From: Flavobacterium sp. N1736
Lineage (GTDB): Bacteria > Bacteroidota > Bacteroidia > Flavobacteriales > Flavobacteriaceae
Assembly (NCBI RefSeq): GCF_025947065.1
Contig: NZ_CP109994.1
Coordinates: 372,001-436,000, forward strand
Direction of reading: 5' to 3'
DNA length: 64,000 nt
Position numbers and translations under genes: made by a program. Below are positions 54,833-59,956 of this stretch, in pieces (the first letter of the stretch is position 1; each line of letters opens with the position of its first letter). Under the pieces are notes generated by a model. It did no database searches. It saw nothing but the letters and a program-made list of their open reading frames with translations, and was not told the origin of the DNA.

Positions 54833-54874
54833 TAAGGATAAATTTGTCTTTTAATATTGATTTAAATATATTTG
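54833..54874 (+). promoter_or_regulatory. Promoter and overlapping operator of the Rrf2 regulator
   Basis: TTTG (54843-54846) and TATATTTG (54867-54874), 20 bp apart, form a textbook Bacteroidetes promoter. The -33 box lies inside an imperfect palindrome at 54833-54852 (TAAGGAT, AAATTT, GTCTTTT). The same 7-6-7 palindrome precedes ric and nirK. An Rrf2 protein bound here would block RNA polymerase, giving autoregulation. Confidence 0.7.
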
Positions 54875-54896
54875 TAAAGAATTTAATCCATTTTAT

Positions 54897-55346
54897 ATGT
54901 TTTCAAAAGCGTGCGAGTACGGCATTCGGGCTTCTATTTTTATTGCAACTAAATCTTCAAAAGGAATTAGGGTTGGAATAAAAGATGTGGCGAAAGAAAT
55001 CGATTCACCAGAACCATTTACGGCAAAAATTATGCAGATTCTTACCAGGAATGGTATTATAGCTTCTGCCAAAGGTGTGGGCGGTGGATTTGAGGTTTCT
55101 AATAAAGCTATAAAATCGATAAAACTCATTCAGATTGTAGACGCGATAGACGGAAATGCAATTTATAAAGGCTGCGGAATTGGCTTAAAAGAATGTTCTG
55201 AAACACATCCTTGTCCGGTTCATAATGAATTTAAAAAAATAAGAGAATTACTTCTGGATATGTTAACCAATACAACTTTAGAAGAGTTGGCTTTGGGGGT
55301 TAATTCAGGAGATTTTCATCTTAAAATATTTAATAAAAGCGAATAA
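54897..55346 (+). CDS. Rrf2-family regulator, candidate NO/iron-sulfur sensor (NsrR-like)
   Basis: 149 residues. The N-terminal winged helix (about 1-65) has ACEYGIRASIFIA and the recognition region SPEPFTAKIMQILTRNGIIASAKGVGGGF (in pieces). A three-cysteine cluster Cys93, Cys100 and Cys106 (KGCGIGLKEC, HPCPVHNEF) could bind an iron-sulfur cluster as in IscR and NsrR (here spacing C-x6-C-x5-C). The gene is first in a unit with azurin and next to ric and nirK. With the shared palindromes, a nitrosative-stress sensing role is likely. It could instead be an IscR-type regulator, but the neighbours argue for NsrR-like. Confidence 0.85.
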   Translation: MFSKACEYGIRASIFIATKSSKGIRVGIKDVAKEIDSPEPFTAKIMQILTRNGIIASAKGVGGGFEVSNKAIKSIKLIQIVDAIDGNAIYKGCGIGLKECSETHPCPVHNEFKKIRELLLDMLTNTTLEELALGVNSGDFHLKIFNKSE

Positions 55347-55370
55347 AAATTATAATTTAAATACTTAATA

Positions 55371-55892
55371 ATGAATAAAAAGATCAACATTTCGATGCTT
55401 ATGCTAATGGGATTTTTAGCCATAACTTCTTGTGGAAAAAAAGAAACTGCACCAACCGAAGAATCAACAGAAATAAATGATACAACAGATTCTGAAGGAG
55501 AAAAATCGGCAGAAGCAAGTAACACTTTAGTTATTGAAGGAAACGACCAAATGCAGTTTAATACAAACGAATTGAGAGCAACTGCGGGACAGCCAATTAC
55601 ATTAACCTTAAAGCACGTTGGAAAAATACCAAAAGAAGCTATGGGGCATAACTTGGTTATTTTGCAAGAAGGTACAGATGAAGCCGATTTTGCCACCAAA
55701 GCAATGAATGCAAAAGAGACAGATTATATTCCGACATCTGAAAAAACATCTATTATAGCGCATACTAAATTATTGGGTGGAGGCGAAGAAGATACGATTG
55801 AATTTACTATTGATAAAAAAGGAACATACAACTTTTTATGTACTTTCCCAGGGCATTTTGCTATGATGAAAGGTGTTCTAATTGTAGAATAA
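55371..55892 (+). CDS. azu: Azurin-type blue copper lipoprotein
   Basis: 173 residues with a lipobox (MNKKINISMLMLMGFLAITSC, Cys21) and an acidic Thr/Glu linker. The azurin fold has type 1 copper ligands His93 (AMGHNLVI), Cys157, His162 and Met166 (LCTFPGHFAMMKG, the Cys-x4-His-x3-Met order of azurin). It is an electron carrier in the periplasm, anchored to a membrane, and plausibly donates to NirK. It lies 24 bp after the Rrf2 gene and is likely co-transcribed with it. A terminator follows. Confidence 0.93.
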   Translation: MNKKINISMLMLMGFLAITSCGKKETAPTEESTEINDTTDSEGEKSAEASNTLVIEGNDQMQFNTNELRATAGQPITLTLKHVGKIPKEAMGHNLVILQEGTDEADFATKAMNAKETDYIPTSEKTSIIAHTKLLGGGEEDTIEFTIDKKGTYNFLCTFPGHFAMMKGVLIVE

Positions 55893-55900
55893 AAACTTTT

Positions 55901-55934
55901 AAACTCTAATACTGTTAATAGGTTAGAGTTTTTT
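55901..55934 (+). terminator. Terminator after azurin
   Basis: 9-bp stem (55901-55909 with 55923-55931, AAACTCTAA) and a 13-nt loop followed by T residues, 8 bp past the azurin stop. It separates the Rrf2-azurin unit from ric. Confidence 0.8.
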
Positions 55935-55941
55935 AATGAAT

Positions 55942-55969
55942 CAATAAAAGATAAAATTATCTTTTATTG
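55942..55969 (+). promoter_or_regulatory. Operator palindrome upstream of ric
   Basis: 28-bp near-perfect palindrome: arms CAATAAAAGATAA and TTATCTTTTATTG around a central AA. Its core is AAAAGAT-N6-ATCTTTT, the same 7-6-7 design as at 54833-54852 and 59751-59772. It lies about 40 bp ahead of the ric start codon. It is the best-symmetric of the three sites. Confidence 0.7.
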
Positions 55970-56007
55970 TAAATCAATGATAATTAATTAAATAATTAAA
56001 AGAAAAA

Positions 56008-56739
56008 ATGGAAAAGTTAAAGAATAAAACAGTTGGATCATTTGTAGCTCAGGATTTTAGAACGGCTGCAGTTTTTACAAAATATCAAATCGATTTTTGC
56101 TGTAAAGGAAACAGAACTATTACCGAAGTTTGTGACAAGCAAGATATTGACCCGGATGTATTAATACAAAATGTATATGATGTTTTGCAGTCTGAAAATG
56201 ATAATACTATAGATTTTAATTCATGGCCATTAGATTTAATGGTAGATTATATTGAAAAAACACACCATCGTTATGTTGAGGAAAAATCACCAATATTAGT
56301 ACAGTTTTTAGATAAATTATGCAAAGTTCATGGGGGAGGACATCCGGAATTGTTTAAAATAAATGAACTGTTTATTGCAGGAGCGGGAGAATTAGCACAA
56401 CACATGAAAAAGGAAGAATTAATGCTGTTTCCTTATATTAAACGAATGGTGAAAACGAAAGAATCTAACGGGATTTTATCTCAGCCTTCTTTTGGGACTG
56501 TATCAAATCCAATTGCGATGATGATGGAGGAGCATGAAACCGAAGGAGATCGTTTTAGTGAAATTGCAAAACTTACGAATAACTATAACGCACCAAGTGA
56601 CGGATGTACAACTTATAAAGTAACATTTGCGATGTTGAAAGAGTTTGAAGAGGATTTACACAAACACATTCACCTTGAAAATAATATCTTGTTTCCTAAA
56701 GCGGTTATTTTAGAAAAAGAATTTCCTGAAGTAGAATAA
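56008..56739 (+). CDS. ric: Iron-sulfur cluster repair di-iron protein (Ric/ScdA/YtfE)
   Basis: 243 residues. The N-terminal ScdA-type domain (about 5-60) has TVGSFVAQDFRTAAVF and Cys31-Cys32 (FCCKG). A hemerythrin-like four-helix bundle (about 75-235) carries scattered His ligands: HHRYVEE, HGGGHPE, HMKKEE, EEHETEGDRF and HKHIHLENN. It repairs iron-sulfur clusters damaged by NO and is a classic member of NO-responsive regulons. It has its own operator/promoter after the azurin terminator. A terminator follows at 56763. Confidence 0.94.
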   Translation: MEKLKNKTVGSFVAQDFRTAAVFTKYQIDFCCKGNRTITEVCDKQDIDPDVLIQNVYDVLQSENDNTIDFNSWPLDLMVDYIEKTHHRYVEEKSPILVQFLDKLCKVHGGGHPELFKINELFIAGAGELAQHMKKEELMLFPYIKRMVKTKESNGILSQPSFGTVSNPIAMMMEEHETEGDRFSEIAKLTNNYNAPSDGCTTYKVTFAMLKEFEEDLHKHIHLENNILFPKAVILEKEFPEVE

Positions 56740-56762
56740 AAATAAATTTTAATAGTGAGAAG

Positions 56763-56806
56763 AACACCGATAAATGGCAAATTGCTGCGTATTATTGGTG
56801 TTTTTT
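56763..56806 (+). terminator. ric terminator
   Basis: Stem AACACCGATAA (56763-56773) with TTATTGGTGTT (56792-56802), one G-T pair, 18-nt loop, followed by T residues. It lies between convergent ric and sco. Confidence 0.8.
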
Positions 56807-56863
56807 GTTGAAATTAAGTTTACAAAATCTATGTTTCTATCTGTTAAAAAAAACCTGCCTAAT

Positions 56864-57466
56864 TTAAATTTTATTAGCTTCATTGTTTATTGCTGTTACT
56901 GTTTTTTCATTGTTTACGCCCAAACCTTCTTGTTGAAATACCAATTCACCATCTGGATTAAAAACACTGATAATATTAGAATGCGTAAAATCCAACGGAG
57001 ATATTTTTTTATAATTTACGGCAAGTACGGCGGCAAATTCACGTGTATTTTCTTCTGTTGAACGTAAAAAAATCCACGGATCCTGATTCATTTTATTGGC
57101 AATAGCAAACGATTTTAATTTTTCAGGAGTATCTGTTTTAGGATCTATGCTTACCAAAATAAGTTTTACGTTTTCCTTGGTTTGTTTATCCAGTTTGGTT
57201 TCAATATTTCTCATATCGGCAACTAATCTGGGGCAAGCGGCTTTGCAGGAAGTATAAATCATGACCATAACCAGAACATTTCCTTTCAGGCTTTTTAGCT
57301 CAATATTTTTTCCATCCTGATTTGTCCATTGTGATGGTAAATTATAGATAGATAAATCTGTAATTTCTTTACTTTTCGAAGGTTTTTGAATTTCTTCTTT
57401 CGTATGATCTTTACAACTTTGCAATGTCACAAGAAACAGAAAGATTGTAATTATATTGTGTTTCAT
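56864..57466 (-). CDS. SCO-family copper chaperone/thioredoxin-like lipoprotein
   Basis: 200 residues from ATG 57466: lipoprotein signal MKHNIITIFLFLVTLQSC (Cys18). The thioredoxin-like SCO domain has the copper-binding pair Cys74-x3-Cys78 (YTSCKAACPRL) and the distal His162 (DFTHSNII). SCO proteins deliver copper to or reduce copper sites of oxidases and, in denitrifiers, nitrite or nitrous oxide reductases. It is the third gene of the nirK-nirV-sco operon (13 bp after nirV), so it is most likely dedicated to metallating NirK. Confidence 0.9.
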   Translation of the reverse strand: MKHNIITIFLFLVTLQSCKDHTKEEIQKPSKSKEITDLSIYNLPSQWTNQDGKNIELKSLKGNVLVMVMIYTSCKAACPRLVADMRNIETKLDKQTKENVKLILVSIDPKTDTPEKLKSFAIANKMNQDPWIFLRSTEENTREFAAVLAVNYKKISPLDFTHSNIISVFNPDGELVFQQEGLGVNNEKTVTAINNEANKI

Positions 57467-57479
57467 TTTAAGTTTTGAA

Positions 57480-58250
57480 TTAAAGTTGTGTTGTACTGGC
57501 ACATCGAAATCCTAAATTTCGGGTTGAATATTGTGCTTTAAGGCTTCCTCTAAATGCATATCGCATAAAAGCGGCATAATCCATTAAATCAGTTGCGTTT
57601 ACGGATGCTCCGCCACAAAAAAGATTTTTGTCTTCACTTTTGTCTTTTCTGGATTCTCCGGATAAAAAAATGCTGTTAAAATCAGCGGTCCATTCCCAGA
57701 CTAATCCATGCATATCATAAACTCCCCAGTAATTTTTGAAGGTTTTACCAATTGAATTTTCATATGTTTTTGATTTTTCATACCACGACAAAATGTATGT
57801 ATTAAATTCTGACTTGGTTCTGGCATCTGTTTTTCTTTCATCGGCCATAGCCACATATTCCCATTCATTCATTGTTGGCAGGCGTTTTCCTATACATTCG
57901 CAATATTTTTTTGCAGCAAACCATGAAATATTTGTTACGGGTGATTTTGGATTTACATTTCCAAAATCAAAATCACTTTTCCAATATTGCAGATAGCTTT
58001 TATCGCCAAAAATCCCTTTTATTCTGGATTTAGTAAAATTGGTATTTTTTTGAATAAAACTTAAATATTCATTATTTGTAACAGGATATACATCTATAAA
58101 AAAGGATTTTACAATTACGGGATTTTTTGAGGCAGTTCCGTAAAGAGGGACAAAAGAGCCCTCTTTTATTGGAACCATTTTCGATTCCTGCGCTCTTACG
58201 AACTCAATCTGAACCAGAAAAAGAAAAATAATTAAAATGCTTTTTTGCAT
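57480..58250 (-). CDS. nirV: NirV-like SUMF1/formylglycine-generating-enzyme-domain protein
   Basis: 256 residues with a signal peptide (MQKSILIIFLFLVQIEFVRA). The SUMF1/FGE domain (about 30-250) has PVTNNEYLSFI, SWFAAKKYCECIGKRLPTMN, WEYVAM, GLVWEWTADF and CGGASVNATD. It ends LGFRCAST. The paired copper-binding active-site cysteines of true FGE are not evident, so it may be a non-catalytic relative. A SUMF1-type gene beside nirK is known as nirV in some denitrifiers. It lies 14 bp after nirK. Its function in nitrite reduction is unsettled. Confidence 0.8.
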   Translation of the reverse strand: MQKSILIIFLFLVQIEFVRAQESKMVPIKEGSFVPLYGTASKNPVIVKSFFIDVYPVTNNEYLSFIQKNTNFTKSRIKGIFGDKSYLQYWKSDFDFGNVNPKSPVTNISWFAAKKYCECIGKRLPTMNEWEYVAMADERKTDARTKSEFNTYILSWYEKSKTYENSIGKTFKNYWGVYDMHGLVWEWTADFNSIFLSGESRKDKSEDKNLFCGGASVNATDLMDYAAFMRYAFRGSLKAQYSTRNLGFRCASTTQL

Positions 58251-58264
58251 GTTACTTTCTATGT

Positions 58265-59710
58265 TTATCGTTGTGCCTTAACCATTTCAGGAGTAACTTC
58301 TGTTTTATTATTGCCCCAGCTGTTATAGATATAGGTCATAACATTTGCAATTTCATCATCAGATAAATTTTGTTCCGGCATTATGCTATTGAATTTTTTG
58401 CCATTTACGGTAACTTCTCCGCTTAAACCATGCAAAATTGTTTTAATAGCTCTTTTAGAATCGGCATTTAGATAATCTGATTTTGCAAGCGGAGGGAAAG
58501 CGCTCGCAATACCTTCTCCGTTAGATTGATGACAGGCAAAACAGGTTGTTCCGTAAATTTCTTTTCCAATTTTTATTTTATCGGCTACAGATCTTTTTGG
58601 AGTAACTGTTGTCGCCGTTTTAGTTTCTGGCATTTTTTGAATCGTTCCGCCTTCGGGCAAATAAATTCCTTCCTGAATAGTTCCTGAATAAATGTTTTTA
58701 TTTTCAGCACCTTCAACTTTCAATATTCCTAAAGCACCTTTATTAAAAGCTCTAAAAATAGAATGATCTACTATAATGAAATTTCCGGGAGTTTCTACTT
58801 TAAAATCAACAATTGCAGATCCACCAGCCGGAATTAATGTTGTCTGAACATTTTTATTGATAAGAGCACCGCCTTCTACATGCACATTATCAAAGATTTC
58901 ACCAATAACATGAAACGACGAAACCAAATTTGGACCGCCATTACCAACAAACAAACGAACTGTTTCGCCAACTTTTGCGGTAAGTTCATTTCCGTTTGTC
59001 ATCGAACCCACTTTTCCGTTAAAAACAACATAATCAGGAGTTTCTTTAACTGCTTTATTCATATCAAAAGGCTGAAGTCCTTTAGCTCCATATTCACCCT
59101 GAGTATAAAAATCACCCTGCATTACATAGTATTCTTTGTCGACCGGAGGAAGTCCTCCTTCTGGTTCCACTAAAATTAAACCATACATTCCGTTAGCAAT
59201 ATGCATTCCAACCGGAGCGGTTGCACAATGGTAAACGTACAGCCCCGGATTTATTACCTTGAAGCTAAAGATTTTTTCGTGACCGGGCGCTACAAGCGAA
59301 GAAGTTGCGCCACCACCAGGACCAGTTACGGCGTGTAAATCAATATTATGAGGCAGTTTATTATCAGGATGGTTTTTTAAATGAAATTCTACTTCATCGC
59401 CTACACGGGTTCTGATGAAACTTCCGGGAACAGAACCCCCAAATGTCCAGTACGTATATTTTACGCCATCTGTCATTGTACCTTCCTGTTCTTTAATCTC
59501 CATGTTTACTTTTAATTTCATAGCCGTTCTGTTACCAACTGGTTTTGGTACCATTGGCGGAGCAGTGAGTTCAGCATCCATTTGTCCGTCAGTTTTAATT
59601 GTAGTATAATCCACGGACTCTTCATTTTTTTTACATGATGATAGCAAGATTACAACACTGGCAAAAAAAAAGAGTTTTGTAACAAGAAGAGTTGTTTTTA
59701 GCTTTTTCAT
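58265..59710 (-). CDS. nirK: Copper-containing nitrite reductase with fused cytochrome c domain
   Basis: 481 residues with a lipobox (SVVILLSSC, Cys26). Two cupredoxin domains follow. Type 1 copper ligands are His121, Cys162, His170 and Met175 (with His126 and His161 in the type 2 site, NIDLHAVTG and YHCATAP), and His267/His316 match the catalytic and type 2 His ([14 protein letters not shown]). The C-terminal cytochrome c domain (about 375-465) has CFACH (Cys390, Cys393, His394) and a probable axial Met444 (SIMPEQ). It reduces nitrite to NO outside the inner membrane. It heads the operon nirK-nirV-sco. Gene-fusion NirK forms are known in Bacteroidetes. Confidence 0.95.
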
Positions 59711-59750
59711 AACAATTGGTTTAATTTTAGTTTTAAATCTGAAGTAAATT

Positions 59751-59772
59751 TAAAAGACTAATTTGTCTTTTA
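59751..59772 (-). promoter_or_regulatory. Operator palindrome upstream of nirK
   Basis: AAAAGAC, six bases, GTCTTTT, extended by matching T/A outside, symmetric in 20 of 22 positions. It sits 41 bp upstream of the nirK start. It is the same 7-6-7 palindrome found before the Rrf2 gene and ric. The -7 box of nirK itself is not clearly recognisable. Confidence 0.7.
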
Positions 59773-59956
59773 TTATGATAAAAGTCATGTAATACTTACA
59801 AGTGATTGTGTTAATTTAATTGATATATCTTTAAATTTAATAATCTATTCTTGCAAAAAGCGCCTGAAAGCTTACAATTATTCAACTATATAATTCAATT
59901 TGTAATATTTTTTAATTAAAAATAAAAGGCTAACTCTATTTTAGAATAATAATCAT

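Follow-up and report, generated by a model that had tools for sequence, protein, structure and literature searches.

Three copies of a strict palindrome mark a compact locus in the window—the whole analysed stretch of 64,000 nucleotides from Flavobacterium sp. N1736—where they precede rrf2, which encodes an Rrf2-family regulator, ric, and nirK (Table 1). The same palindrome stands before the same nitrite/NO genes in many relatives; hence, the neighbouring regulator probably binds to it. We regard it as likely that this Rrf2 protein is an autoregulated repressor of nirK, ric, and nor genes, with the palindrome as its operator, and that NO releases it by damaging an iron–sulfur cluster.

Table 1. 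Features of the rrf2–ric–nirK locus (positions in the window)
Feature	Positions	Strand	Basis
Operator 1, upstream of rrf2 and of the azurin-type gene that follows	54833..54852	+	TAAGGATAAATTTGTCTTTT, pattern scan
Likely rrf2 promoter: TTTG in operator 1, 20 bp, then TATATTTG	54843..54874	+	Read from sequence
rrf2, Rrf2-family regulator, 149 aa; Cys93/Cys100/Cys106, Glu7, His109	54897..55346	+	PF02082, 81.1 bits
Azurin-type cupredoxin lipoprotein-like gene	55371..55892	+	TIGR02695, 112.9 bits, above cut-off
Hairpin then T-run 3' of azurin-type gene, probable terminator	55901..55934	+	Fold of -9.5 kcal/mol
Operator 2, upstream of ric	55946..55965	+	AAAAGATAAAATTATCTTTT, pattern scan
ric, ScdA/YtfE-type di-iron repair protein	56008..56739	+	TIGR03652, 240 bits, above cut-off
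SCO1/SenC-type gene, nirK group	56864..57469	-	PF02630
FGE-sulfatase-domain gene, nirK group	57480..58250	-	PF03781
nirK, copper nitrite reductase with C-terminal cytochrome c domain	58265..59710	-	TIGR02376, 347 bits, above cut-off; PF00034
Near -7 box of nirK, TAAATTTA, adjoining operator 3	59745..59752	-	Read from sequence
Operator 3, upstream of nirK	59752..59771	-	AAAAGACTAATTTGTCTTTT, pattern scan
FNR-type box (second palindrome, ATGACTTTTATCAT), 3 bp from operator 3 on its upstream side	59775..59788	-	Pattern ATGAY-N4-RTCAT

The operator palindrome and its placement

The operator pattern, WAARGAY-N6-RTCYTTW, spans 20 bp with 7-bp arms and a 6-bp spacer. Its only exact matches in the window are the three sites of rrf2, ric, and nirK—where the preliminary description had already placed them, with the arms at ric drawn longer (55942–55969, the same palindrome as 55946–55965). 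First-order Markov copies of the window (n = 300) hold 0.067 exact matches on average, and none of the 300 reaches three. The arm geometry that all three sites were said to share is perfect in operators 2 and 3 (7/7 pairing), whereas only 4/7 positions pair in the rrf2 copy.

The operator is special by its strict form and its placement, not by its number. With up to three mismatches, the excess in the window is gone (48 matches vs 61 expected), and genome-wide the pattern occurs 9 times exactly vs 19 times for the reversed pattern, or 667 vs 929 times at up to two mismatches. The genome scan that had been proposed as a check agrees for three of the nine exact copies, which lie at the locus; of the others, five fall within reading frames and one between genes.

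Around rrf2 in relatives, 81 stretches (1.6 Mb) contain 129 exact copies, 125 of which precede rrf2, ric, nirK, qNor, or norC; for the reversed pattern in the same stretches, this holds for 0/12. An origin as chance AT-rich palindromes would fit the loose scans (2–3 mismatches), which were uninformative and give matches no commoner than in controls. Against the Markov copies and this conservation in the related stretches, however, it is hardly conceivable and was dropped.

Conservation in relatives and the reader of the operator

Genes with less than 250 bp upstream and unnamed ORFs below 150 aa were excluded beforehand from the upstream counts. An operator with at most one mismatch then lies within 300 bp upstream of nirK in 34/43, norC in 9/12, qNor in 16/26, rrf2 in 32/84, and ric in 25/77 cases, and of other genes in 3/636. 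Close loci bear the operator at -62 to -66 upstream of rrf2 in 33/33 cases (1–2 mismatches) and upstream of nirK in 24/24 (at most one mismatch); among more distant loci (n = 47), 7 show an rrf2 site with at most one mismatch, and beyond Flavobacterium and Myroides the operator is patchy. The earlier proposal that rrf2, ric, and nirK form one regulon under a common operator is supported by this distribution, in which qNor and norC of relatives also take part.

It appears unlikely that another regulator—of the CRP/FNR type or another Rrf2 paralogue—reads the palindrome and that rrf2 is merely one target. Such a reader would account for one genome (G188) that carries the operator upstream of ric while any Rrf2 match is absent, and for the weak association of operator and Rrf2 presence: across family genomes, the relaxed operator is found at 37/89 nirK/ric upstreams from genomes that have Rrf2 vs 1/11 from genomes that lack it (p 0.048, computed on related rows). 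This co-occurrence is a weak test, since only 8 genomes are without Rrf2 at E ≤ 1e-15. Two further Rrf2-like genes in the genome of Flavobacterium sp. N1736 are potential readers, but they match the Rrf2 protein only at E values of 1.4e-6 and 5.3e-4. Also speaking for the neighbouring Rrf2 protein, rrf2 itself is preceded by a site in all close loci, sister genes have sites beside them too, and the FNR-type box is a distinct palindrome.

Family genomes with a strong Rrf2 match show the relaxed operator at 20/43 nirK and 2/16 ric. A weight-matrix scan covered 53 nirK upstreams, with the window's own and one at a contig end omitted, and, out of 129 ric places, 47 upstreams (31 in genomes without strong Rrf2, 16 with ric distant from rrf2). 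At first the scan suggested operators in genomes "without" Rrf2, but a weaker Rrf2 (E ≤ 1e-15) is present in most of these.

Promoter architecture and the FNR-type box

Promoter boxes were assigned by TAnnTTTG, which we take to be the Bacteroidetes promoter consensus. At rrf2, the TTTG of the -33 box lies inside operator 1, 20 bp upstream of TATATTTG—an overlap already pointed out in the preliminary description—and 33/40 rrf2 operators carry TAnnTTTG at the matching offset. The near -7 box of nirK is one base away from TAnnTTTG, which occurs at this offset in 19/33 nirK operators of relatives. At ric, TAnnTTTG was not found 3' of the operator, nor was a -7 box at most qNor operators of relatives. 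The broader claim that the palindrome covers all three transcription starts holds only in part: a predicted promoter box lies within the palindrome at rrf2 and adjoins it at nirK.

The lack of a recognised -7 box at ric and qNor might suit a protein that activates, or acts in both ways, at part of its promoters; passages on Thermus NsrR describe such a case, with repression of nirS but activation of nirJ and norC (PMC5748679). We consider this improbable for the Rrf2 protein, whose operator covers or abuts the promoter boxes at rrf2 and nirK in the manner of a repressor.

The fold of the hairpin behind the azurin-type gene is equalled by 5 of 200 shuffles, and a scan for consensus terminators did not pick it up.

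The nirK promoter carries two palindromes. The second, the FNR-type box, was overlooked in the preliminary description; its pattern is found in 35/43 nirK upstreams vs 27/636 other upstreams. Genome-wide it occurs at 35 places vs 28 for the reversed control, and among the 15 places inspected 6 are intergenic, including those at nirK, fnr-like/P-type ATPase, ccoNO-like, and hemN. Given the hemN, ccoNO-like, and fnr-like genes that share the box with it, nirK may likewise depend on low oxygen. With its own distribution, the box also means that a CRP/FNR protein need not read the operator; FNR as the operator's reader was dropped on the ground that the two palindromes are separate. DNR/FNR boxes in passages of Rodionov et al. 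2005 (PMC1274295) are likewise palindromes with a 4-bp spacer upstream of nir and nor genes, whereas the published TTGATnnnnATCAA differs from the Flavobacterium box. In passages of PMC8510549, the CRP/FNR homologues of a Flavobacteriales bin are assigned to a carbon response, and no control of denitrification by them is seen; this does not favour an FNR reading of the second box.

In the scheme that we propose, binding, repression, the cluster, the NO signal, and FNR reading of the second box are predicted from sequence. A dimer with an intact iron–sulfur cluster would occupy the -33 box at rrf2, lie at nirK with the FNR-type box on one side and the -7 box on the other, and bind directly upstream of ric, thereby holding all three promoters off. 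Upon damage of the cluster by NO, the protein would leave, and rrf2–azurin, ric, and nirK–fge–sco would be expressed; in relatives, this release might also turn on qNor and cNor, with nos following via a sister regulator. An FNR-type activator about 41 bp upstream of the start could give nirK its second input, for low oxygen.

Relation to NsrR and to denitrification

The regulator belongs to the Rrf2 family (PF02082, 81.1 bits vs a cut-off of 30; rrf2_super, 82.6 vs 73.3) and, as noted before, bears three cysteines, which align with columns common to E. coli NsrR. In a sample that takes in every second locus of L041–L120, the putative ligands C93, C100, C106, and H109 are conserved in 69/69 sampled clade members and 20/20 of the weaker group, and E7 in 69/69 clade members. 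Identity with NsrR itself finds no support: the protein scores 31.7 bits against the NsrR equivalog NF008240 (cut-off 182), shares 24% identity with E. coli NsrR, and matches the solved NsrR structure 5n07 only at E 0.098, 11th of 13 matches listed after CymR, IscR, and others. In a tree from the same sampling (145 columns), the branches of the E. coli sequences are very long, and NsrR finds no clear place. The published NsrR operator, gATGyAT-N5-ATrCATc in passages of PMC1274295, is unlike AAAAGAY-N6-RTCTTTT in Flavobacterium, and with up to three mismatches it gives 5 matches in the window vs 8.6 expected, none at 54–60 kb.

Its regulon is nevertheless NsrR-like, with nirK, ric, qNor, and norC behind conserved sites. 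The same passages describe NsrR of proteobacteria, Bacillus, and Streptomyces as an Rrf2 protein with three cysteines, with targets that in some species include nirK, norB, and dnrN/ytfE, and with an FNR-like site upstream of the NsrR site at enterobacterial hcp, comparable to the Flavobacterium nirK promoter. In passages on Thermus thermophilus NsrR (nic cluster; PMC5748679), Rrf2 also adjoins nir and nor genes, and a palindrome lies upstream of nir, nor, and its own gene; differences are the palindrome (CTTGACCNNGGTCATGG), NirS in place of NirK, and the dual activator/repressor role. The regulator probably works like the NO sensor NsrR, yet by sequence it appears to stand outside the NsrR family.

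Doubtful, in our view, is a regulator that binds the sites and senses chiefly iron–sulfur or iron status (IscR/RirA-like) or nitrite, in which case the genes would follow because Ric repairs clusters. E. coli IscR (25% identity) shares the three cysteines and a histidine in the His109 column, and the Rrf2 protein scores better to IscR than to NsrR models (46.6 vs 31.7 bits; 38.9 vs 34.3 bits), although the IscR model TIGR02010 with its cut-off of 207.55 is likewise missed. The targets, however, are nirK and NO reductases, and isc/suf genes are absent among the sites seen.

Searches of the Flavobacterium sp. N1736 genome found no NO reductase and no NosZ, which the preliminary description had overlooked. 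As NirK apparently makes NO and an NO reductase is apparently missing, Ric together with tight nirK control may be this genome's main protection from NO.

Genes of the nirK, nor, or nos type occur in many Flavobacteriaceae, and how these are switched is hardly known. With a defined operator and a target list the question becomes testable, and control of NO/N2O genes could be predicted from genomes. We lean, on balance, toward a Bacteroidota Rrf2 lineage apart from NsrR that switches all of denitrification in response to NO. One of its clades would serve nirK, NO reductases, and Ric, and a sister group nos, through a common operator (core ARGAY-N6-RTCYT); low oxygen would be added as a condition by the FNR-type boxes of nirK, norC, and nos. 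In titles and abstract openings of mainly open-access literature, no description of an Rrf2 operator in Bacteroidetes was recognised. The Rrf2 genes of flavobacterial clade II nos clusters are probably the nos-linked sister group found here; passages of the 2018 metagenome paper that reports them (PMC6264515) give the genes only, with operator and regulon unnamed and a role called difficult to predict. The palindrome is present in this sister group adjoining nosZ clusters too, and in the 20 stretches around weaker Rrf2 relatives it lies between rrf2 and the nos cluster in 7.

Operator placement in the genome and in relatives

The palindrome WAARGAY-N6-RTCYTTW, here termed operator, lies before rrf2, ric and nirK where the preliminary description had located it, and the window holds these three matches only; 300 first-order random copies of the window carry 0.067 matches on average, and none (0/300) gets to three. 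The window sits within a single-contig genome of 5.1 Mb, and in the genome-wide scan proposed in the same description, three of the nine exact copies belong to the locus; six lie elsewhere, five within reading frames and a lone intergenic one in an apparent longer inverted repeat. The reversed pattern, serving as control, has 19 exact places, and with up to two mismatches the pattern is rarer, too (667 vs 929 for the control, forward matches). What sets the sites apart is thus where they stand and not how many there are, the pattern being no more frequent than its control. The strict regulon in this genome is this locus alone.

Coordinates of the locus features and of one gene from a relative
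Feature	Position	Strand	Remark
rrf2 operator	54833..54852		
rrf2, azurin-type gene, ric	within 54.9-59.7 kb	+	in this order
Terminator-like hairpin, then ric operator	55901-55965		no promoter box recognised behind
ric operator	55946..55965		
SCO1-type gene, FGE-domain gene, nirK with cytochrome c tail	56864-59710	-	kept together in most nirK-bearing loci
nirK operator	59752..59771		
Second palindrome, ATGAY-N4-RTCAT	59775-59788		three bases upstream of nirK operator
Membrane-protein-like gene, ~400 aa	L045:14180-15403		adjoins ric in many relatives

The small FGE-domain and SCO1-type genes may serve maturation of the copper enzyme NirK. The membrane-protein-like gene, without a match in Pfam and NCBIfam searches, is not present after ric in the window.

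From the scan of named genomes, the best 80 of at least 586 confirmed stretches were retained. All 33 close loci (L041-L073) bear the operator 62-66 bp upstream of rrf2 with one or two mismatches. Among the more distant loci (L074-L120), 7 of 47 have a site with at most one mismatch within 250 bp upstream of rrf2—four Myroides, two named Aquimarina and one Bacteroidia bin; by this measure, the site is missing from another Aquimarina, which is uncultured (L091). At most one mismatch within 300 bp is found upstream of nirK in 34/43, norC in 9/12, qNor in 16/26, rrf2 in 32/84, ric in 25/77 and other genes in 3/636 cases; in the close loci only, the counts are 24/24 for nirK, 15/19 for qNor, 25/33 for rrf2 and 13/33 for ric. 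In many of these, the qNor gene (PF22085 and PF00115 matches in L045) stands between the azurin-type gene and ric and bears the operator.

The 81 stretches (1,602,004 bases) contain 129 exact copies, and 125 of them are found upstream of rrf2 (37), nirK (31), ric (23), qNor (20) or norC (14), vs none of the 12 copies of the reversed pattern; as these stretches were selected around rrf2, the count gauges placement there and not genome-wide precision. The observation is confirmed, and conservation across genera supports the proposed single regulon of rrf2, ric and nirK. The four exceptions are one copy in L065 and one place shared by the related L099, L100 and L106. The latter lies about +6790 from rrf2, near a gene that reads as a putative nadA, whose product is an iron-sulfur enzyme.

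The Rrf2 protein as probable reader of the operator

Flavobacterium provides the closest named relatives of the window's Rrf2 gene among the matches listed. Cys93, Cys100 and Cys106 of its product align with cysteines of E. coli NsrR and IscR, and C6, E7, C93, C100, C106 and H109 are invariant in 69/69 sampled clade members. Position 7 is Asp in E. coli NsrR and Arg in E. coli IscR; position 109 is Lys in the former and His in the latter. With Asp8 of NsrR and His107 of IscR as cluster ligands, the window's clade would have both fourth-ligand candidates. The label NsrR is not supported: model score, nearest solved structure and operator speak against it, and the tree, with E. coli rows on very long branches, speaks neither for nor against it.

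That this Rrf2 protein would itself bind the operator is probable from the sequence comparisons, as the rrf2 gene bears the operator in close loci and sister group alike and the target genes fit such a reader. On the other side, a relaxed operator occurs in 37/89 upstream regions with an Rrf2 protein in the genome vs 1/11 without (p 0.048, on related rows), and the sole exception, the genome G188 (L201), lacks any Rrf2 match, its ric being preceded by a well-formed operator. Genomes with a strong Rrf2 carry the relaxed operator before nirK in 20/43 and before ric in 2/16 cases, these 16 having been chosen for ric lying apart from rrf2.

Putative promoter elements and FNR-type box

TTTG and TAnnTTTG boxes are taken here to be Bacteroidetes promoter elements. 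The window's rrf2 operator includes TTTG, 20 bp upstream of TATATTTG, and 33/40 rrf2 operators have TAnnTTTG at this offset. The nirK operator is directly abutted by a -7 box—TAnnTTTG at offset +19 in 19/33; the window's version deviates from it at one base. In close loci, no -7 box was recognised behind the operators of ric and qNor.

The second palindrome, ATGAY-N4-RTCAT, reads as a putative FNR-type site. It occurs upstream of nirK (35/43), norC (8/12) and the nos-cytochrome gene (6/7), and elsewhere at ric in 12/77, rrf2 in 7/84, qNor in 0/26 and other genes in 27/636 cases; in 26 nirK pairs it starts 17 bp ahead of the operator, and in a wider family set, a relaxed form is found in 26/53 nirK stretches. 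Guessed from the -7 box, its centre would lie ~41 bp upstream of the nirK start. The window's genome has 35 places vs 28 for the reversed control; of 15 inspected, nine are within reading frames and six intergenic, including those at nirK, in the gap that separates a CRP/FNR-type gene from a P-type ATPase gene, 250 bp upstream of a ccoNO-like gene, and upstream of hemN. No control of denitrification by the CRP/FNR proteins of a Flavobacteriales bin was seen in one study (PMC8510549). The whole mechanism, an NO switch of Rrf2 and operator plus FNR-type input, appears reasonably likely, judged from sequence.

Nitrogen physiology and nos clusters

The genome's only COX1-family matches are two proteins of 600 and 729 aa, which read as CtaD and CcoNO; hence, the family search found no NO reductase of this type. 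A search with the NosZ model gave one match only, weak and inside nirK. Nitrite reduction in this organism probably ends at NO.

For the sister group, 20 stretches carrying more weakly related Rrf2 genes (32-42% identity) were compared. Their Rrf2 proteins conserve the three cysteines and H109, with Lys at position 7 in 17/20. A scan of these stretches at a more permissive cut and without control gave at least one site in 17/20 and zero in L246, L252 and L253. In seven (L238, L239, L249, L250, L251, L254, L255), rrf2 is divergent from an adjoining cytochrome c-(fasciclin)-nosZ cluster (nosZ reference: TIGR04246, 949 bits) with the palindrome in the gap. L247 has the same gene order, but with its site inside a predicted reading frame. 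L242 has rrf2 and a nos-type cytochrome gene in divergent orientation, and there the palindrome precedes ric; in L236, L237 and L243, it is upstream of a ric-rrf2 group. Putative anaerobic ribonucleotide reductase genes are near ric or rrf2 in L074, L238 and L248, and stand behind a palindrome in the latter two.
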